Assembly: GCF_009696175.1 (NCBI RefSeq)
Contig: NZ_VUMM01000014.1
Span: 1 to 43,604, forward strand
Direction of reading: 5' to 3'
DNA length: 43,604 nt
Origin: Floccifex porci
GTDB taxonomy: Bacteria; Bacillota_I; Bacilli_A; Erysipelotrichales; Erysipelotrichaceae
The position numbers and the translations under genes were made by a program. Below are positions 5,056 to 43,604 of this stretch, one piece after another (within the stretch, counting starts at the first letter, position 1; every line of letters begins with the position of its first letter). The notes beneath the pieces were generated by a model. It ran no database searches, was not told where the DNA came from, and was given only the letters and a program-made list of their open reading frames with translations.

Positions 5056-7584
5056 ATGAAGCAAGTCAAAATCATTAGTGATCCCTATAAAAAAGAAACG
5101 TCATTTCAAATATTTGATGAAAATCAAAAAAATTGGATAAATATTGATAAACTGTCAAATCCAAACAGTAAATTAATAAGTGACGATTTTAAAAGCAGTT
5201 TTTTTCCATTTAAAATTCAAGAGATAGTTGAAACGATTATTAAAGAGTATGGTATTGGTGATAATCAATTAGATATTTATTTTAAAGGTACACCAGACCA
5301 TTTTGATGATTTGCAACAGATTATAGAAACGATTGATGTATCTTGTAAACTTACGTTATTTCGTGATGATAGCTATTTAATTAATGCACAAGATGTATTA
5401 CCAGAAATTATAAATATCTTTAAAAAACTTAAACCAATTATTGAATTAGGTGAAGATAATAAAGAAAAGCTGAAAAAATACATTGAACGTTTTTCCGATT
5501 CTTCTGCTGACAGAATTCCATTATGTGTAATTGGAAATTACAGTTCTGGGAAATCAACTTTTATCAATGCATTAATAGGGAAAGAAATTCTACCTAGTGG
5601 TGATGATCCTGTTACTGCAAAAGTATTTAAAATTAATCAATTAGAAAATGATAACAGTACGTACATTAAATTTGAATATGATGGGAATGACGTTCAAATT
5701 TTAATAAATGATAAGAATTTTGAAGTTTTAGGTCAAACATCATCTTTTGAGCAAGAGTTAAAAGAAATCCTTAAGGAAAATATTGAAGATGGTAATGTAA
5801 AGACCATTAATGCATGTATTGCTTATATCAATAAGACTGACTACACAAGAATATCTTCAATCATAGAAATTGGGACATCTTTTAAAGGTGGTATTTGGAA
5901 TGAATGTTCAAGTAGGTTTATTATCATAGATACTCCCGGATCAAATTCAGCTACTAATTTAGACCATAGTGAGGTTCTAGATAAAGCTTTAAAAGGATTA
6001 ACAAATGGATTGCCACTTTATGTTTCTGAAGCCAATAAATTAGATAGTACAGATAACTTTGATCTGTATAAAAAAGTTAAGGACATGCCAGAAATTGATT
6101 CACGGTTTACTATGATTATTGTGAATAAAGCAGATGATAGTGATTTACCTGAAGAGGGTTATTATACTGAAGAAAATGAAATTGCATTGCTTAATCAGGC
6201 AATTCCAAAAAGTATGTATTCAATTGGAATTTATTTTGTTTCTTCTATTATGGGATTAGGTGCTAAGTGCAATGGAGATTTTGCTAACAAACACTCTAGA
6301 AAAATTCATAGAAAGAATTTAGATATGTTTAGTGATATTGAAGATGAAGATTACACATGTCTGTATAACTTTAATATTATGCCACGACAAATAAAAACGA
6401 ATTCGATTGAAAAATGTAAATCAATTATGAATGATTTAGTATATGTAAACAGTGGTTTATATGCAATTGAACACGGTATTCAAAACTTTGCAAATAAATA
6501 CTCTGCTTATAACAAATGTAAACAATCTTTGATGTATCTGGAAAAAATTATTAAATTAATAGATTCAGAAATTAAAAAGTTAGTATCAGAAAGTGAAAAG
6601 AAAAAGAAAGAATTGATCGAATCACTTAATGAAGAAAAGGCAAATTTATTAGATACAATTGAAAAAACCAGTAGAGATCGTAAAAGCGAATTCGTAGAAG
6701 AAGGAAGAGTCTTCTTAAGACAGTATACCCAAGAAAATAAACCTTCAATATCTCATAATGAACTGGTTTCTTATGAAGAGGAATTTATCAAAAAACAAAG
6801 AAGAAATATTCAATATTCTTTTTATCAAGAACAAGTTAAAGATTCTAAGCGTTCATTTGTAAACAACTTAAAGAGTGGATTTGGTGATACAATTCAGAAC
6901 TTATCATTTGATATCATCAGCAATGCTGTATCTACAGCAATTAGTGATGGAAAAAATATTATTGAAAGCTATTATGATCGTAATAAAGCAGAAAAGGATG
7001 CTGATAAATTAGCAGCTAAGGATATTATTGATAAAATTGATAAGGACTTAACTATTAATTCAGATGAATTTTTCAGTAAAACTAATGAAGCTTCTATTCA
7101 ATATTGGGATGATAAATCTTCAGAGGTTAGAAAAGAGTTGTCGAAAATTGTTTTAGGATCAACTGCTTTATCAGAAAGTAAAAAGAATGAGTTAACAGAA
7201 TTAATCATGAATTACGATGCCATTGAGTACAATGTAATACACGATAATATATTGAAAGTTGAAGATTATAAATTTCGATTCTTCTCAGAGAAACTTATTA
7301 AAATAAAATTATCAATTGATGTGAATAAATTGTATGATTCGTTTGCTAAATATACAAACAATACAATTTATGAAAGCCATAGCTTAAGTTTTAAAAGATG
7401 GATGGATCAATTATCTCATATCATTACTGAAAATATTGTAGATTACAATCCATTATTATCTGAGCTTCAAAAGGCAATCAATGCTGAAATTGATAAAATA
7501 CATGAATTGCAATACAGACAAGAAGTGGTTGAAAGTAATATTGCCTATATTCGTAAAAAAATTGATTGGCAAACAAATGAATAA
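5056..7584 (+). CDS. Dynamin-like GTPase
   Basis: The 842-residue protein is a bacterial dynamin-superfamily GTPase. The P-loop GNYSSGKST starts near residue 159, followed by a switch threonine in DDPVTAKVF, the G3 motif IIDTPGSNS near 290 and the G4 motif VNKADD near 356. About 150 residues with no recognised domain precede the GTPase. The rest is helical, with a Lys/Glu-rich coiled coil at about 495-560, as expected for a stalk that self-assembles. No clear transmembrane segment is present. It opens a four-gene operon: aggagg lies ten bases before ATG 5056, and the next gene starts 12 bases after its stop. Relatives remodel membranes or act in phage defence; its role here is inferred from its partners. 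Confidence 0.85.
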   Translation: MKQVKIISDPYKKETSFQIFDENQKNWINIDKLSNPNSKLISDDFKSSFFPFKIQEIVETIIKEYGIGDNQLDIYFKGTPDHFDDLQQIIETIDVSCKLTLFRDDSYLINAQDVLPEIINIFKKLKPIIELGEDNKEKLKKYIERFSDSSADRIPLCVIGNYSSGKSTFINALIGKEILPSGDDPVTAKVFKINQLENDNSTYIKFEYDGNDVQILINDKNFEVLGQTSSFEQELKEILKENIEDGNVKTINACIAYINKTDYTRISSIIEIGTSFKGGIWNECSSRFIIIDTPGSNSATNLDHSEVLDKALKGLTNGLPLYVSEANKLDSTDNFDLYKKVKDMPEIDSRFTMIIVNKADDSDLPEEGYYTEENEIALLNQAIPKSMYSIGIYFVSSIMGLGAKCNGDFANKHSRKIHRKNLDMFSDIEDEDYTCLYNFNIMPRQIKTNSIEKCKSIMNDLVYVNSGLYAIEHGIQNFANKYSAYNKCKQSLMYLEKIIKLIDSEIKKLVSESEKKKKELIESLNEEKANLLDTIEKTSRDRKSEFVEEGRVFLRQYTQENKPSISHNELVSYEEEFIKKQRRNIQYSFYQEQVKDSKRSFVNNLKSGFGDTIQNLSFDIISNAVSTAISDGKNIIESYYDRNKAEKDADKLAAKDIIDKIDKDLTINSDEFFSKTNEASIQYWDDKSSEVRKELSKIVLGSTALSESKKNELTELIMNYDAIEYNVIHDNILKVEDYKFRFFSEKLIKIKLSIDVNKLYDSFAKYTNNTIYESHSLSFKRWMDQLSHIITENIVDYNPLLSELQKAINAEIDKIHELQYRQEVVESNIAYIRKKIDWQTNE

Positions 7585-7596
7585 TGGAGGAACCAA

Positions 7597-10500
7597 ATGG
7601 GGATTAAGAATGTAGTAAAGAAAATTGCTGATAAATCCGCTGGTACAGTATCTAAGTTAGCATCATTAAGTTCTGAAGAATTGGAAAAGATAGAAAATCA
7701 ACGTTTATCATACTTATTTGATATGCCTTCAGTTGATGATGATGAATCCTTGGAACTGACGGGAAGATTAATGGCGGCTGCATCAGTAGAAATATATAAC
7801 GCATATTTACCTCAAATCAAAAATCTGTATTCACCTATAAAAAACAATGTTGAATATGGAAAAGATTTTATTCCAGGTCACAATATTCGCTATATCAATA
7901 TTACAAAATGGGTAACAAATAAGGAAGAAAACAGTCTTGAAAAACTTATTAATGTTTATGAAGTATTATCAAATGAAGAATGTAATATTGCATTAGTTTT
8001 CAATAGAACCGTAACTAAAACAAATGTATATTTAGCAGTAACTAATACTCTAAATGAAAACAACAATACGAACATTGACATCTATAAGAGGAGAATCGTA
8101 GATGCTATTAAAGGAAACTTTCCTGGTTCAGAATACATAGATGATGGAATTGGTACTCTTCCTTGTTTTAACGATGAGTTAAAATATTCTATTGCATATG
8201 CATCGAATATTCCAGCTGAAAAATCGGAAAAATTTATAAGTCAAACAATAGAAAAATTATTAGATGGAATTGTACCAATAAGAAAGAATCAAGAATACAC
8301 AATTGTTTTATTGGCTACACCTATTCAAGATGTAGAAGAAAGAAAATTAAAACTTGCTGAATTCTATACAGCTTTATCACCATATGCTTCATGGCAAACG
8401 GATTTCCATTTCAATGATATGCAAGCATTTGGAGCATCTGCAACAATTGGAGTAAATGTTGGAGCAAGTGCTGGAGTGCAAAAAGGAACAAATCATTCCA
8501 ATACAGACACAGATGGAAGTACAACAAATGAATCAAAAACAGATACAGATACAACATCTGAGGCAGTAACTAAAGGTTCTAGCGATACTGCTGGCGGAAG
8601 TATTTTTGGTTCAGGAACAGCTTCAGCAGGGGTCTTAGGAACTGGAGCTTCTGCTACTGCTGGCACAAGTGTAGATTATCGTCACACATGGAGCAGAAGC
8701 AAAACTTCCACAACAGGAAAAAGTGTTGCAAAGACCGTTGGTAAAGCTATAACCAAAAGTTCAGCAAAAACAATTGGATCTACTGCTAGTGGAAGCCTAG
8801 GAGCTAACTTTGGAGCTAACTTTGCTAGATCATCAAGTGTAACTGCGACAGTAGGAAAAAACGAAGGTATCACTCAATCGCATACAAACTATACTATCAA
8901 ACATACTCTTGAAGTATTAGAAGAACAGATGAAGAGATACGAACAAAGTGTTGCTTTAGGAATGTGGGATTTTGCCGCCTATATTCTAAGTGAAGATATG
9001 GATATTGCTAATAATGTAGCTCATTCATATGTAGCTTTAACACAAGGCGAAAAATCATATATGTCACAAGCGTCTATTAACTTATGGCGAGGGGATACAG
9101 ATAGTGAGGAAAGTTTAAATGCAAAAGAAATTTATCAATATATTTCTAATTTAAGACATCCTATTTTTGGCTTAGATCCAGGAATCATTAATTTAGACAG
9201 TACTTTCCTAGTATATCCTTCTGTTGTGACAGCAACTACATGTTTATCAGGTAAAGAATTAGCTTATTCATTAAATTTTCCTAAATCATCAATTTCTGGA
9301 TTACCGGTAATTGAATGTACGGAGTTTGGTAGAGATATTTCAAGATATAGTCAATTTGAATCTGAAAAAAACATTAAATTGGGAAATATTTTTCACATGA
9401 ATCATATGGAAAGTACAACTGTATCTTTAGATGTTAACTCTATGGCTTCTCATACTTTTATTACAGGTAGTACAGGTACTGGTAAAAGTACAACAGTATA
9501 TAGACTGTTAAATGAATTAAGGAAAAAAGATGTTAATTTTTTAGTTATCGAACCGGCAAAAGGAGAGTATAAAAACATCTTTGGTAATAGAAAAGATGTA
9601 AATGTATTTGGAACTAACCCAAAGAAAAATGAATTATTAAAACTAAACCCATTTAGTTTTAATGAAGATATTCATGTGTTAGAACACATTGATCGTCTTA
9701 CAGAACTATTTAATGTATGTTGGCCAATGTATGCAGCAATGCCAGCTGTATTAAAGAAAGCAATTGAATATGCATATAAAGATTGTGGATGGGATTTAGA
9801 TAATTCTATAAATGAATATTCAGAAAGCTATTATCCTACTTTTACAGATGTAGCTCGTAACATTAAATCTATTATTGATTCTAGTGAATACGATGCTGAA
9901 AATAAAGGTGCTTATAAAGGATCTTTACTGACAAGATTAGAATCTTTAACAAATGGTATTAATGGAATGATTTTTACTAAAGATGAATTATCTGATGAAA
10001 TCTTATTTGATGAAAATACTATTGTGGATTTAAGTAGAGTTGGATCGAATGAAACTAAATCATTATTGATGGGAATTTTAGTTTTAAAATTGCAAGAATA
10101 TAGAATGTCTACATCGGATATGAATGCAAACTTAAGGCATATTACTGTATTAGAAGAAGCACATAATTTATTAAAAAGAACTTCTTTTGAACAATTTTCA
10201 GAGTCATCTAATTTATTAGGTAAGAGTGTTGAAATGATTAGTAATGCAATTGCGGAAATGAGAACCTTTGGGGAAGGATTTATCATTGCAGATCAAGCAC
10301 CTGCCTTATTAGATATGGCAGCAATTAGAAACACAAATACAAAGATTATTATGAGATTACCTGATCAAGGGGATCGTGAATTAGTAGGAAAAGCGGCCAA
10401 TTTAAATGATAATCAAATAAAAGAACTTGCTAGACTTCCTAAAGGGGTTGCAGCTATTTATCAAAATGAATGGATCGAACCTATTTTATGTCAGATAAAA

Positions 10501-10989
10501 AAACCAAAGATAAATGAAAGCAGGTATGAATTTACACCTATTCCAATTAAAGGTGATATAGAACCGTTTAATAACTATAGGTCATTCTTGGCAACATTGA
10601 TTTCCAAATGTAATTCGATTACTGATGAAAATACATTGAAAGAAATAAAAGTTGCGATTGATAGTATCAATATTCATGATTCATCAAGAGTCGCAATAAT
10701 TAATTGGTTAACAAATCCACCAAAAGAACCTAAAATGACAAAAATGGCTCCATTGATTAGTGAATTGTATCCTGAAGTTTATAGAGCAGTAGCAAAATCA
10801 TTTTATGATTCAAACAACCCAAGAGAATGGACTTTAGCTGCTGTTAATACTCTTGAAAATATTGATTGTTCGTTACAAGGACAAATTAGAAGAGATATTA
10901 TTCAATCTATCATCACAAATCATATTTATCTTGAAAGAAATGATATCAAATCATTAGAAAAATGGACCAAAGTAGGAGGATTAAAATGA
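7597..10989 (+). CDS. HerA/DUF87-type ATPase with Ser/Gly/Thr-rich insert
   Basis: The 1130-residue protein is an additional-strand ATPase of the HerA/VirB4-like (DUF87) type, enzymes that form hexamers and pump DNA or protein through a central channel. Walker A is TGSTGTGKSTTVYRLL near residue 623 and Walker B is TVLEEAHNLL near 849. Later parts match HerA relatives, including an IIADQAP block and IIMRLPDQGDRE. Before the motor lies a 270-residue folded region, then about 140 residues (roughly 280-420) very rich in Gly, Ala, Ser and Thr with an N-terminal basis like a repeat tract, then a helix. This is about twice the size of a plain HerA. ATG 7597 has ggagg at six bases. Its stop overlaps the toxin start by four bases (ATGA). 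It may be a translocation motor for the toxin; that is inference. Confidence 0.8.
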   Translation: MGIKNVVKKIADKSAGTVSKLASLSSEELEKIENQRLSYLFDMPSVDDDESLELTGRLMAAASVEIYNAYLPQIKNLYSPIKNNVEYGKDFIPGHNIRYINITKWVTNKEENSLEKLINVYEVLSNEECNIALVFNRTVTKTNVYLAVTNTLNENNNTNIDIYKRRIVDAIKGNFPGSEYIDDGIGTLPCFNDELKYSIAYASNIPAEKSEKFISQTIEKLLDGIVPIRKNQEYTIVLLATPIQDVEERKLKLAEFYTALSPYASWQTDFHFNDMQAFGASATIGVNVGASAGVQKGTNHSNTDTDGSTTNESKTDTDTTSEAVTKGSSDTAGGSIFGSGTASAGVLGTGASATAGTSVDYRHTWSRSKTSTTGKSVAKTVGKAITKSSAKTIGSTASGSLGANFGANFARSSSVTATVGKNEGITQSHTNYTIKHTLEVLEEQMKRYEQSVALGMWDFAAYILSEDMDIANNVAHSYVALTQGEKSYMSQASINLWRGDTDSEESLNAKEIYQYISNLRHPIFGLDPGIINLDSTFLVYPSVVTATTCLSGKELAYSLNFPKSSISGLPVIECTEFGRDISRYSQFESEKNIKLGNIFHMNHMESTTVSLDVNSMASHTFITGSTGTGKSTTVYRLLNELRKKDVNFLVIEPAKGEYKNIFGNRKDVNVFGTNPKKNELLKLNPFSFNEDIHVLEHIDRLTELFNVCWPMYAAMPAVLKKAIEYAYKDCGWDLDNSINEYSESYYPTFTDVARNIKSIIDSSEYDAENKGAYKGSLLTRLESLTNGINGMIFTKDELSDEILFDENTIVDLSRVGSNETKSLLMGILVLKLQEYRMSTSDMNANLRHITVLEEAHNLLKRTSFEQFSESSNLLGKSVEMISNAIAEMRTFGEGFIIADQAPALLDMAAIRNTNTKIIMRLPDQGDRELVGKAANLNDNQIKELARLPKGVAAIYQNEWIEPILCQIKKPKINESRYEFTPIPIKGDIEPFNNYRSFLATLISKCNSITDENTLKEIKVAIDSINIHDSSRVAIINWLTNPPKEPKMTKMAPLISELYPEVYRAVAKSFYDSNNPREWTLAAVNTLENIDCSLQGQIRRDIIQSIITNHIYLERNDIKSLEKWTKVGGLK

Positions 10990-11756
10990 ATCTAGACAAA
11001 CTATCTAAACCAGAAATGTCAAATTCTACTTCATTAGAATCTTCTTTGTTTGATCCTGACAACCGCATAGAATTAAACGATACAGATCCTGAGGAATTTA
11101 CGGATGATAAACCTGATTTGAATGAAGAATCTGGAAATAGTGATCCAGATAAACGAATTAAATCAGATGATATTGATAAAGATAATCATCTAGATTCAGT
11201 AATTGACTCAGATTGTCTTAATAATATGGAAACAGGAGGAAATGAATTTAATCCTAATAATAGAATAGATACAAAAAATAAGGTGTATTATGATGATAAT
11301 GAAAAACAATATCGTGAAGGAGATAAACTTCTACCAAATAACAGTTATGAATTAAATGGGTATGCTTATGAAACTGATAAAAAGGGAAGAATCGTTTCTG
11401 CCGGAGGAAAACTTAGAATCGTTGATTCAACTTCAAGGAATATGGAAAGAGATATTAATACGGTAGGTAAAGGATACGAAAAAGAAAATGACAATAAAGG
11501 TCATGTGATTGGTCACCAATTTGGTGGAGATGATCGTTTAGGTAATCTTATAGCGCAAGACAAAAAAGAAAATCAAGGTGAGTATGCAAGACTTGAAAAC
11601 AAACTTGCTGATGCGGTAAAAGAAGGAAAAAATGTGACAGTTGATATTAAAATAGACTATTTACAAGGTTCATATAGACCATCCAAAATTGTATATACTT
11701 ATAGTATTGATGGTAAAGTAAGTCAGCAAACATTCAAAAACAGGAGTAGTAAGTAA
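10986..11756 (+). CDS. Polymorphic-toxin-type DNA/RNA non-specific endonuclease
   Basis: The 256-residue protein ends in a His-Asn type nuclease domain (Endonuclea_NS_2-like): KGHVIGHQFGGDDRLGNLIA at 171-190 with His173, His177 and Asn187, then QDKKENQGEYARLEN. Such domains are toxic tips of polymorphic toxins that degrade nucleic acid. The N-terminal 100 residues are acidic, seem unstructured and hold three copies of a [FS][DN]P[DN][NK]RI motif at 22-28, 52-58 and 88-94. There is no signal peptide and no LXG or WXG domain. I start at ATG 10986, six bases after aggagg and overlapping the ATPase stop; an upstream ATG at 10962 has no such site. It is followed by its likely immunity gene with a one-base overlap. 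Confidence 0.85.
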   Translation: MNLDKLSKPEMSNSTSLESSLFDPDNRIELNDTDPEEFTDDKPDLNEESGNSDPDKRIKSDDIDKDNHLDSVIDSDCLNNMETGGNEFNPNNRIDTKNKVYYDDNEKQYREGDKLLPNNSYELNGYAYETDKKGRIVSAGGKLRIVDSTSRNMERDINTVGKGYEKENDNKGHVIGHQFGGDDRLGNLIAQDKKENQGEYARLENKLADAVKEGKNVTVDIKIDYLQGSYRPSKIVYTYSIDGKVSQQTFKNRSSK

Positions 11757-12115
11757 TGACAATAAAATTATTTCAAAAAATATATGAAAAGTTAAATGTG
11801 TATCTACCAGAAGAGTGGGAAAAGATCGTATACTACGCTTATTATCCAACAGATGACAGTTATGACATGAAATTCTATGTTAATGTTGATCAAAAATATA
11901 AAAGTTGTTTTGATTATATTAATCATTATAAGATAGCTGATTTGTTTTCTGATATTGATGATTTGATTTATCCAATTAGAGAGACTATGAATGATAAGTG
12001 GACAATCATGACCATCACCGTTGAAAAAAATGGAAAATTTAAAACTGATTACGTATACGATAGAATAAATGAAACAGAATTCTTTAAAAAATGGGAAAGT
12101 CAATATTTAAAATAA
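11756..12115 (+). CDS. YezG/DUF600 family immunity protein
   Basis: The 119-residue cytoplasmic protein resembles the YezG (DUF600) family, whose founding member is encoded beside the YeeF toxin of Bacillus subtilis, a toxin ending in the same nuclease class. Typical features are the LPEEWEKIVYYAYY start, the Trp-rich KWTIMTITVEKNGKF strand pair and the FFKKWESQYL end. It should bind and block the nuclease encoded just before it. The ATG shares its A with the toxin stop codon (TAATG), so the two are translated together, which suits a toxin and its antidote. It is the last gene of the operon; a strong terminator follows 25 bases later. Confidence 0.85.
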   Translation: MTIKLFQKIYEKLNVYLPEEWEKIVYYAYYPTDDSYDMKFYVNVDQKYKSCFDYINHYKIADLFSDIDDLIYPIRETMNDKWTIMTITVEKNGKFKTDYVYDRINETEFFKKWESQYLK

Positions 12116-23018: not shown

Positions 23019-24065
23019 TTAAATACGAACATATCCAGTTGCCGGCCCGGCACCTACTTTTACGATATATCCACTTTTAACCAGTTCCGTCAGGGTTCTT
23101 TCTACAGTTACCTTGCTTATATCCGGACATAACTCCATGATTTCTTTTTTGGTAATTTTTCCTACCTTATTATCAATCACTGCCTTTATACGATCCGGCT
23201 TTGAAAGGTTTCTATTTTTCAGGTGCTCTACACGCCCCCAAAATTCACTGTATGCTTTCAGAATAATTCCTAGATAATATTTTACAAATGGCTCATAACT
23301 GTTTTCATTTTCGTGCCATCCATTGGAACTTTCCTGTAATGCCTCATAATAAGTTTCTTTTGTCTTTTCAATCAGCATTTCAACACTGACATACTTTCCG
23401 ACAATATAGCCGGCTTTGTAAAACAAAAGAAGTGTTAACAGGCGGCTCATTCGCCCATTTCCATCATTAAATGGATGGATACACAGAAAGTCAAGAATAA
23501 ACATAGGGATAAGAATTAACTTATCTATTCGATCTGCTTCCCATGCTTCCAGAAAATTTGTACAAAGTTCATTCATATCTTCTGGAGTCTGAAATGCCGG
23601 CACCGGGATAAAACGCGCTTTTTGATGAACTTCTGCATCTGTTTCTACAATTACATTATCCAAATTTTTATAATTTCCACCAGCATTTCCTCCGGAATAT
23701 GAGTATAAATCCCGATGCAATTGTAAAATAATATTGGGTCTCGGATTAAAATACTCATAGCTTTCATGGATAGTGGAAAGAACTTCCCGATATCCGGATA
23801 TTTCCTGTTCAGACCGGTCACGCGGTACGGCTTTCTGTCTTACTAATTCTTCCAAACGTTTGTCGGTAGTATAAATACCTTCAATCCTGTTAGAAGACCT
23901 TGTACTTTGAATCAAAGCAACTTCCTGCAGAGTTTTCAATTCGTCTATATTGGCTTCAAGGAACAATTCCTGTTTACCTTTATGCTCATGAATGCTTCCG
24001 ACCATCTGAACAATTTCAGGTTTTAGCAATTGCTCCGGAGTTTTTATATAATCAAAACTTCTCAT
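23019..24065 (-). CDS. Fic family protein (AMP-transferase type)
   Basis: The 348-residue protein contains a complete Fic core, HPFNDGNGRMSRLL with the catalytic His near residue 197, so it should transfer AMP from ATP to a target protein. An inhibitory-helix motif SNRIEG (Ser58, Glu62, Gly63) precedes the Fic domain, placing it among the self-inhibited (class II) proteins that need no separate antitoxin. A C-terminal winged helix (KEIMELCPDISKVTVERTLT) suggests DNA binding and autoregulation. I start at ATG 24065, six bases after aaggag; an ATG at 24080 precedes that site. A 12-bp inverted repeat lies over its promoter. More G+C-rich than the chromosome around it, so probably acquired. Confidence 0.9.
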   Translation of the reverse strand: MRSFDYIKTPEQLLKPEIVQMVGSIHEHKGKQELFLEANIDELKTLQEVALIQSTRSSNRIEGIYTTDKRLEELVRQKAVPRDRSEQEISGYREVLSTIHESYEYFNPRPNIILQLHRDLYSYSGGNAGGNYKNLDNVIVETDAEVHQKARFIPVPAFQTPEDMNELCTNFLEAWEADRIDKLILIPMFILDFLCIHPFNDGNGRMSRLLTLLLFYKAGYIVGKYVSVEMLIEKTKETYYEALQESSNGWHENENSYEPFVKYYLGIILKAYSEFWGRVEHLKNRNLSKPDRIKAVIDNKVGKITKKEIMELCPDISKVTVERTLTELVKSGYIVKVGAGPATGYVRI

Positions 24066-24088
24066 CGAAATCTCCTTCATTTTAATAT

Positions 24089-24144
24089 TATCTCCATCAT
24101 TTTACCATCAAATGACGGTGATATTAATTAGCATGATGGAGATA
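24089..24144. promoter_or_regulatory. Inverted repeat over the fic promoter (candidate operator)
   Basis: tatctccatcat (24089-24100) and atgatggagata (24133-24144) are exact reverse complements 32 bases apart. On the minus strand the proximal arm runs over the likely -10 (TAATAT) and start of the fic transcript. The protein's own winged helix is the obvious candidate to bind it. Confidence 0.5.
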
Positions 24145-24200: not shown

Positions 24201-24365
24201 TCACTTCATTGTCTTCGCCAGTGACGTAAGAAGTGCTGCCATCTCAGGATTATTAAGGACCTTTGCAAGCAGCTCTTCATCCACGCCTTCCAGAACCGCT
24301 ACCGTGTTTTGTGCTGTATTCGGATGCATCTGCGGATCCAGATCTCCTTTCCCATAACCATTAGC
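24201..24365 (-). pseudogene. C-terminal remnant of an unidentified G+C-rich gene
   Basis: The 54 codons read NGYGKGDLDPQMHPNTAQNT through LEGVDEELLAKVLNNPEMAA to a TGA at 24201. Codon use is clearly more G+C-rich than the flanks, so it is a leftover of imported DNA. No start is present and I do not recognise the family. From 24366 to 24540 no gene is seen. Confidence 0.45.
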
Positions 24366-24542
24366 TAGTAGTGGATATGTAAAGGATTTTTGTGTGGTTT
24401 GATCGTTTTTTGTCTGTAATGTTGTGCGGTTTGGTGATTGGTGACAGAGGTCTTATTAGCAAGAGTTGTTATTTTATTAGAAAAAAAGGCATGAAAATGT
24501 TCGAATCCACTAAAATTTATTAGATGAATTTTTGGAAAAGAA

Positions 24543-24579
24543 AAGCGATGAACAGTTGTAGCTCATCGCTTACTTTTTT
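24543..24579. terminator. Bidirectional terminator beside the tRNA cluster
   Basis: aagcgatga (24543-24551) pairs with tcatcgctt (24563-24571). Six T follow on the plus strand and a T-rich stretch follows on the minus strand, where it would end the tRNA-Arg cluster transcript. Confidence 0.75.
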
Positions 24580-24617
24580 GGCTGAAAATGCCAAAAATGT
24601 CGTTATTTACGTCAAAA

Positions 24618-24694
24618 TGGCGTCCTCGAGGTGATTTGAACACCCGATCTACCGCTTAGGAGGCGGTTGCATTTTCCAGCTGTGCTACGAGGAC
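24618..24694 (-). tRNA. tRNA-Arg (anticodon CCU)
   Basis: On the minus strand the acceptor strand GTCCTCG pairs with CGAGGAC, the anticodon stem ACCGC/GCGGT encloses CTCCTAA (anticodon CCT), and the T arm is GGGTG-TTCAAAT-CACCT. The CCA end is encoded (complement of 24618-24620). The short D stem (GCA/TGC) is weak but acceptable. It reads the rare AGG codon. Confidence 0.85.
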
Positions 24695-24717
24695 ACATAA
24701 AATTTTAGGCACATTTA

Positions 24718-24776
24718 GATACAGAACCACCGATCTCTTAGGAGGCGTGTGCTCTATCCAACTGAGCTATTGGGAC
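24718..24776 (-). pseudogene. Degenerate tRNA-Arg(CCU) copy 1
   Basis: It starts GTCCCAATAGCTCAGTTGGA, a perfect tRNA 5' half, and keeps the anticodon loop CTCCTAA, but the 3' side of the anticodon stem and the acceptor 3' strand are lost and the T arm is partial (GGTGGTTC). It cannot fold into a tRNA. Confidence 0.7.
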
Positions 24777-24837
24777 GTATTTAATTTTTTGTCAGCCTCC
24801 GCAATGATCGGACTCAGCTCCCAACTAAGGTTTTTCC

Positions 24838-24899
24838 AAGGTGAGCGTTGTAACGCAACCTTAGGAGGCGGATCCTCTATCCACCTGAGGTACAAGGAC
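24838..24899 (-). pseudogene. Degenerate tRNA-Arg(CCU) copy 2
   Basis: It starts GTCCTTGTACCTCAGGTGGA with a well paired D stem (CCTC/GAGG) and the same CTCCTAA anticodon loop. After that the sequence no longer pairs, and no T arm or acceptor 3' strand follows. The paired D stem differs from copy 1, so the copies are not recent duplicates. Confidence 0.65.
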
Positions 24900-24908
24900 A
24901 AAAATAAA

Positions 24909-24985
24909 TGGTGCGCCTGACAGGGATCGAACCTGCAACCGCCAGAATCGGAATCTGATACTCTATCCAATTGAGCTACAGGCGC
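24909..24985 (-). tRNA. tRNA-Arg (anticodon CCG)
   Basis: The acceptor GCGCCTG pairs with CAGGCGC; the anticodon stem TCAGA/TCTGG has one T-G pair and a loop TTCCGAT (anticodon CCG); the T arm is GCAGG-TTCGATC-CCTGT. Discriminator A and CCA are encoded. Confidence 0.93.
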
Positions 24986-43482: not shown

Positions 43483-43604
43483 TGAACCCCAAAAATTGGA
43501 CTTCCAATTAAGGAGGTTCATTTTCTTTATGGGAAAGCTTACAAGAGAACAAAAAATCGAAATTTACAAGAAACGAAAACAAGGAATATCATACAAGCAA
43601 TTAT
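43483..43604 (+). mobile_element. IS3-like element, partial right copy (cut by window edge)
   Basis: The sequence starts TGAACCCC and is identical, as reverse complement, to the left end of the window. It lies 18 bases after the polC stop codon. Five further bases outside the presumed terminus (tgaaa) are also shared by the two copies, so the real end could be slightly further out. The element may have brought the transcription end for polC. Confidence 0.75.
43529..43604 (+). CDS. IS transposase OrfA, N-terminal fragment
   Basis: From ATG 43529 the frame reads 25 codons identical to those of the left copy and runs off the window. aggagg lies 12 bases upstream, a little far for strong translation, as is common for transposases. 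It points away from polC. Confidence 0.7.
   Translation, partial: MGKLTREQKIEIYKKRKQGISYKQL

Follow-up and report, generated by a model that had tools for sequence, protein, structure and literature searches.

The tRNA-Arg(CCU) site of Floccifex porci analyzed here is best explained as a layered relic of tRNA-dependent integration, produced in at least two events by integrative conjugative elements that target tRNA-Arg(CCU); we put the probability of this reading at roughly 0.92. The only intact tRNA-Arg(CCU) gene of this genome appears, from its sequence relationships, to have come from a mobile element, namely the second of these elements. According to the mechanism proposed, recombination by a tyrosine integrase would take place between the attP core (CTCCTAAG) and the host tRNA-Arg(CCU), in its anticodon loop. 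This would split the host gene, whose 5' half would stay at the left junction and whose 3' half at the right one, with no tRNA rebuilt. The replacement would be a complete tRNA-Arg(CCU), located about 80-125 bp away (core to core) inside the left end of the element. Since the element tRNA contains the same core, it would represent a fresh target for the next element, and repeated integration would generate successive 5' halves in a row, with the newest tRNA, the only intact one, behind them. Within the window (i.e., the whole stretch of 43,604 nt that was analyzed), the elements would later have been lost, and what remains would be left arms, halves of tRNA genes, one intact tRNA derived from an element and an integrase tail. 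We infer that the element tRNA is expressed and needed by the host, and likewise the order of loss in this genome; tRNA-Arg(UCU), which is also encoded in the genome, might also read AGG.

Read along the minus strand, the array consists of tRNA-Arg(CCG), scar 2, the element 1 arm, scar 1, the element 2 arm, the intact tRNA-Arg(CCU), the element 2 left end and the integrase tail (Table 1).

Table 1. Features of the tRNA-Arg array and the adjoining element remains, in window coordinates
Feature	Position	Strand	Basis
tRNA-Arg(CCG), intact, native upstream neighbour of the target gene	24909..24985	-	ARAGORN, Rfam; CCG-CCU order as in G001, G003, G025
Scar 2: native tRNA-Arg(CCU) 5' half, cut at the anticodon loop	24860..24899	-	Alignment with G001, G002, G003, G025
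Element 1 left (attP) arm and upstream region of its tRNA	24777..24859	-	91% identity in G013
Scar 1: tRNA-Arg(CCU) 5' half, from the complete gene of element 1, cut at the anticodon loop	24737..24776	-	Same element sequence continues in G013
Element 2 left arm; start like a decayed tRNA 3' half (AGATCGGTGGTTC)	24695..24736	-	Similar arms in L051, L164, L166
Intact tRNA-Arg(CCU), assigned to element 2	24618..24694	-	ARAGORN; genome tRNA search; 92-93% identity to tRNA-Arg(CCU) of another family
Element 2 left end up to the hairpin leader and ribosome-binding site of the lost parA	24344..24617	-	73% identity to G135 contig 29
Integrase tail: C-terminal end of the tyrosine integrase of element 2, joined to the parA leader	24201..24343	-	End of the G073 integrase; LDPQM stretch of G024

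ARAGORN called the two intact genes, with anticodons CCT and CCG, and Rfam family RF00005 concurred with both (58.6 and 63.5 bits, respectively); on the two scars, no tRNA was called by ARAGORN. Each scar starts at the first tRNA base and ends in the anticodon loop, beyond which the DNA diverges; the scars are therefore 5' halves and not randomly broken tRNAs. The first-pass annotation had described an intact CCU and an intact CCG tRNA with two broken copies, all on the minus strand, and ARAGORN, Rfam and sequence comparison confirmed this arrangement. The 11-mer core that it had reported, CTTAGGAGGCG, is found exactly at 24655, 24737 and 24860, and these are the only three copies in the entire genome of 2,024,886 bases; when up to one mismatch was allowed, shuffled sequences yielded a mean of 0.12 matches per window and none of 100 shuffles reached three. 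A tRNA family search, used in place of a broad CCT-anticodon pattern that was too loose, identified 49 tRNA genes in the genome, including a single tRNA-Arg(CCU), which is the intact gene of this array. A class B RNase P RNA was also detected, as would be expected of a low-GC Bacillota.

The native arrangement of the site is seen in two members of the genus (G001 and G003) and in one genome of another genus (G025), where tRNA-Arg(CCG) is closely followed by an intact tRNA-Arg(CCU). These relatives carry the CCG-CCU tandem without scars, and the arrangement with broken copies was not conserved among them; G002 looks alike, but its CCU gene runs off the contig. Alignment of the window with these four genomes covers tRNA-Arg(CCG) and the first CCU half and ends at 24860, in the anticodon loop. 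Scar 2 is therefore the native gene, broken at this point. The 83 bp after scar 2 and the first part of scar 1 recur at 91% identity in a genome from a different genus (G013), where they stand behind a different native half, and the start of this arm also matches that of L062, G073 and G033. The same arm and tRNA joined to different host halves is the pattern left by an inserted element. Tandems of tRNA-Arg(UCU) in G037, G039, G041, G042, G047 and G050 were set aside as ordinary intact paralogues with the same 5' half. A viral scan for the GCAC/GCAT form of the D-arm gave no match.

For element 2, the exact junction after scar 1 is uncertain because the start of the arm resembles part of a tRNA 3' half (AGATCGGTGGTTC), as do the arms in L051, L164 and L166; such an arm could have simply decayed or could represent a stage between the canonical and the tRNA-dependent mode of integration. 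On the other side of the intact tRNA, 274 bp of the element 2 left end are 73% identical to contig 29 of G135, where parA follows. The integrase tail (DEELLAKVLNNPEMAALLTSLAKTMK, followed by a stop) is 76% identical to the end of the G073 integrase over 25 residues, and the remnant contains an LDPQM stretch as found in the G024 integrase. At 24343/24344 the parA leader is fused to the last codons of the integrase, and one internal deletion therefore explains the loss of the element 2 body. The foreign origin of the intact tRNA is supported by its 92-93% identity to the tRNA-Arg(CCU) of another family; counting against the reading of the site as a relic, the downstream DNA in G135 matches the window but the element tRNA of G135 differs from that of the window. 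No attR, tRNA 3' half or further core was found in the window or the genome, and the events in the window are therefore read from left ends only, with scar 2, the element 1 arm and the integrase tail established by alignment. The hairpin leader before parA (24344-24401; CTCCTTT...AAAGGAG enclosing the ribosome-binding site) is conserved and recurs in many elements; a second copy is located on contig C23 of the same genome (G000:C23:74102-74167, locus L138), and it was also seen at L137, L139 and L140.

Sequences from relatives display both junctions, the attP, an empty site, serial hits and, in nine of nine cases, regenerated native tRNAs. In G073, the layout is a native 5' half, an arm, a complete but different tRNA-Arg(CCT), the element body, a tyrosine integrase and an attR with the native 3' half; the element is 46.2 kb long, with a GC content of 45% compared to 37% in the flank, and the flanks joined across it fold as a tRNA-Arg(CCT). 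Its genes encode a VirB4 (CD1110 family) and a VirD4 (CD1115 family), which score above the NCBIfam cut-offs for these families, as well as a relaxase, a topoisomerase, an NlpC/P60 protein and a large SNF2-domain protein. As VirB4, VirD4 and a relaxase are encoded, this is an integrative conjugative element. An integrase, type IV secretion genes and a relaxase between att sites were found together for the G073 element only, and the window contains no conjugation gene. A second, independent set is formed by an empty site in G051, an attL and an attR at the same place in G049 and the attP of the viral contig L065, where non-tRNA DNA is followed by CTCCTAAGCG, the arm and then a complete tRNA. 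Across 182 nt, the joined flanks of G049 are 97.8% identical to the empty site of G051. The core CTCCTAAG(CG), which overlaps the anticodon, is common to the L065 attP, both G049 junctions and the G051 empty site (11 attR were compared), and the Pfam domain Phage_integrase was identified in the integrases of G073 and G049. A complete tRNA-Arg(CCT) lies beside attP in L065, G073 and L062. L065 looks phage-like, with an amidase beside attP.

Canonical tRNA integration, in which the 3' part of the host tRNA would be rebuilt at the junction, a displaced fragment would lie at the far end and 16.5-24.4 kb would be the remaining island, seems very improbable. While an anticodon loop target and a tyrosine integrase are also typical of classical islands, the fragments in the window are 5' halves adjoining the intact gene and not 3' fragments at a far border. 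Moreover, in G073 and nine other hosts the 5' half is found at attL and the 3' half at attR, no tRNA is rebuilt at either junction and the element itself contains the intact tRNA; an attP lacking a complete tRNA is refuted for L065 and G073. The GC content, which reaches 38-43% in parts of 18-24 kb, and the one shared orientation of every ORF judged a gene between 16.5 and 24.1 kb would fit an island, yet its left border carries no core copy. The first-pass annotation had named 16.5-24.4 kb as a likely imported product of this site, which is not supported, as neither a core copy nor a tRNA 3' half is present at the left border; the core, which was to be sought there as a direct repeat, has no copy at this border or elsewhere in the genome beyond the three of the array. 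Its view of the anticodon loop as a repeatedly used integration site, with the broken copies as scars, is supported by both the window and the relatives. It missed two points: a whole tRNA arrives with the element as a replacement, and it is the intact gene that is foreign.

Demonstrable element DNA is limited to approximately 24.20-24.62 kb, and the gene content of 16.5-24.1 kb does not appear to support the assignment of this region to an element. The TetR-oleate hydratase pair and the radical SAM gene occupy other chromosomal locations in relatives; the pair adjoins an attR in Suipraeoptans intestinalis and is a common module elsewhere in the order. The Fic gene (23019-24080) is 84% identical to one in Mediterraneibacter catenae and may be horizontally acquired, without a tie to the tRNA site. 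Just upstream of this gene is a palindrome (24090-24143; ATCTCCATCAT...ATGATGGAGAT). The C-terminus of the Fic protein resembles a transcriptional regulator, and palindromes of a similar kind lie on either side of the 84%-identical Fic gene in L184; the palindrome looks like a putative operator of a self-regulated Fic protein. Elsewhere in the window, genes for a dynamin-like GTPase, a HerA/FtsK-type ATPase, a DNA/RNA non-specific endonuclease and a YezG-like immunity protein follow in a row (5056-12115) and represent a possible defence or polymorphic-toxin cluster. A T-arm scan also detected an identical 67-bp stretch, inverted, at both contig ends (about 8-74 and 43530-43596), where the contig probably breaks at a dispersed repeat.

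Even less probable is an element that brings only a promoter and a 5' half, forms a hybrid tRNA with the host 3' half and lies between the scar and the intact gene. The scars are 5' halves, as this explanation would predict, and a hybrid tRNA is present on contig 46 of G038, but the intact tRNAs of G073, G049 and G024 pair with themselves along the acceptor stem and are unrelated to the host half; the tRNA of the window self-pairs too, and the host 3' half is observed at attR, far from the intact tRNA. A promoter-plus-5'-half element was the design considered first and was rejected, as the element tRNA is complete and the element lies downstream of the tRNA.

Serial use of the site is apparent in several genomes. 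The tRNA starting with GTCCATA is intact in L062 and G073 and is found as a scar in G033, where it is followed by another arm and a third tRNA, and two scars precede the intact tRNA in L164, L165 and L166. In G009 (L051, about 8150-8420), two identical 93-bp units of arm plus tRNA form a tandem, which would be expected had the element inserted a second time, into the tRNA it had brought. The tRNA-Arg(CCT) on contig 46 of G038 (L141, 7822-7898) has unpaired acceptor halves (GTTTCCG vs. TAGCGAC), with the 5' half from one element layer and the 3' half from another, and is preceded by an attP-like junction. Both the G009 tandem and the G038 hybrid suggest recombination between copies. Two phage contigs of another lineage (L060, 2186-2217 and L069, 8300-8331) carry a tRNA-Arg(CCU) 5' half cut shortly past the anticodon loop, possibly representing another group that uses the same site.

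An integrase-alignment scan of genome contigs identified at least 525 relatives of the integrase in the genome collection. The G073 integrase itself is 100% identical in Anaeromassilibacillus, Agathobaculum, Clostridium fessum, Blautia, Oscillibacter, Eisenbergiella and others. Among the best 80 of the at least 525 integrase loci, 68 are adjoined by a tRNA-Arg(CCU) 3' half or an intact gene, compared to 0 of 80 reversed-sequence controls. Eleven loci with integrases 93-100% identical to that of G073 were compared; the 66 nt through the core average 97% identity and the following 36 nt, which represent the host half, average 53%. The 201-bp left end of the G073 element is whole and 100% identical in seven of the genomes with these loci, and an eighth has one base missing. 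Both junctions could be paired in nine genomes, and in 9 of 9 the flanks, once joined, fold as a tRNA-Arg(CCT); the native tRNAs regenerated from these nine hosts differ (their 5' halves average 62% identity), whereas the left end of the element is the same. In a subtype represented by L159-L167, the integrase gene follows immediately downstream of the element's tRNA, on the other strand, rather than lying near attR, and the element tRNA, where intact, is identical across hosts. Least credible is a history without mobile elements, in which the tRNA gene was duplicated locally in tandem and then decayed at random, for although tandem tRNA copies exist and undamaged tRNA-Arg(UCU) tandems occur in relatives, breaks at the anticodon loop are found across many genera, are followed by common non-tRNA arms and coincide with integrase loci, and identical arms and halves recur in unrelated hosts.

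On balance, we lean towards a broader view, in which a large clade of conjugative elements of gut Bacillota would normally integrate in a tRNA-dependent manner, each element replacing the host tRNA-Arg(CCU) with its own, which becomes both the only copy and the next target. By this ratchet, hosts would stay dependent after the element has decayed, and arms resembling decayed 3' halves would mark a transition between the canonical and the tRNA-dependent mode. The reading of the site as a relic of tRNA-dependent integration accounts for stacks of half-tRNAs and for the replacement of a host tRNA by foreign copies, and makes the nesting of scars a record of the past order of elements.

Several known systems resemble these elements. 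Canonical islands restore the gene they split, and the Islander search relies on regenerated tDNA plus a displaced fragment (PMC4383910). The tRNA target, the tyrosine integrase, the anticodon-centred sites and the tandem occupancy are shared with canonical tRNA islands and ICEs (PMC4383910); a regenerated tRNA at one end with a displaced fragment at the other was not found here. Island finders that need a rebuilt tRNA and a displaced fragment may therefore miss or misplace such elements. With Tn1549/CTn-like conjugative elements, the G073 element has the CD1110 family of VirB4, the CD1115 family of VirD4 and a relaxase in common, but its site is the anticodon loop of tRNA-Arg(CCU) and it carries a tRNA. 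Tn1549 itself prefers other sites. A literature search, with most subscription journals outside its scope, identified no report of a tRNA-dependent mode for conjugative elements.

The closest likeness is to tRNA-dependent lysogeny, named in 2024 for actinobacteriophages such as Fionnbharth, LeBron, Gaia and others (Guerrero-Bustamante and Hatfull 2024; PMC10865867). These phages also use a tyrosine integrase, their core of 8-11 bp overlaps the anticodon and the host tRNA is not reconstructed (PMC10865867). They are phages of Actinobacteria that use tRNA-Lys, -Ile2 and -Leu, whereas here the hosts are Bacillota, the target is tRNA-Arg(CCU) and the characterised element is conjugative; strict tRNA-dependent lysogeny presupposes a temperate phage, and the G073 element has conjugation genes and a relaxase. 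Here the tRNA is located directly beside attP and is re-targeted, leaving stacked 5' halves, whereas serial scars are not described for actinobacteriophages in the portion of the paper considered (PMC10865867). Dependence on the carried tRNA was tested in actinobacteriophages (PMC10865867), whereas here it is presumed. Among Bacillota, prophage Lj965 of Lactobacillus johnsonii reportedly carries a cognate tRNA, with no tRNA reconstructed at the junction; this is a single prophage (as cited in PMC10865867). The tRNA-dependent integration named for actinobacteriophages is thus encountered here in conjugative elements, with an integrase that is widespread across many genera.
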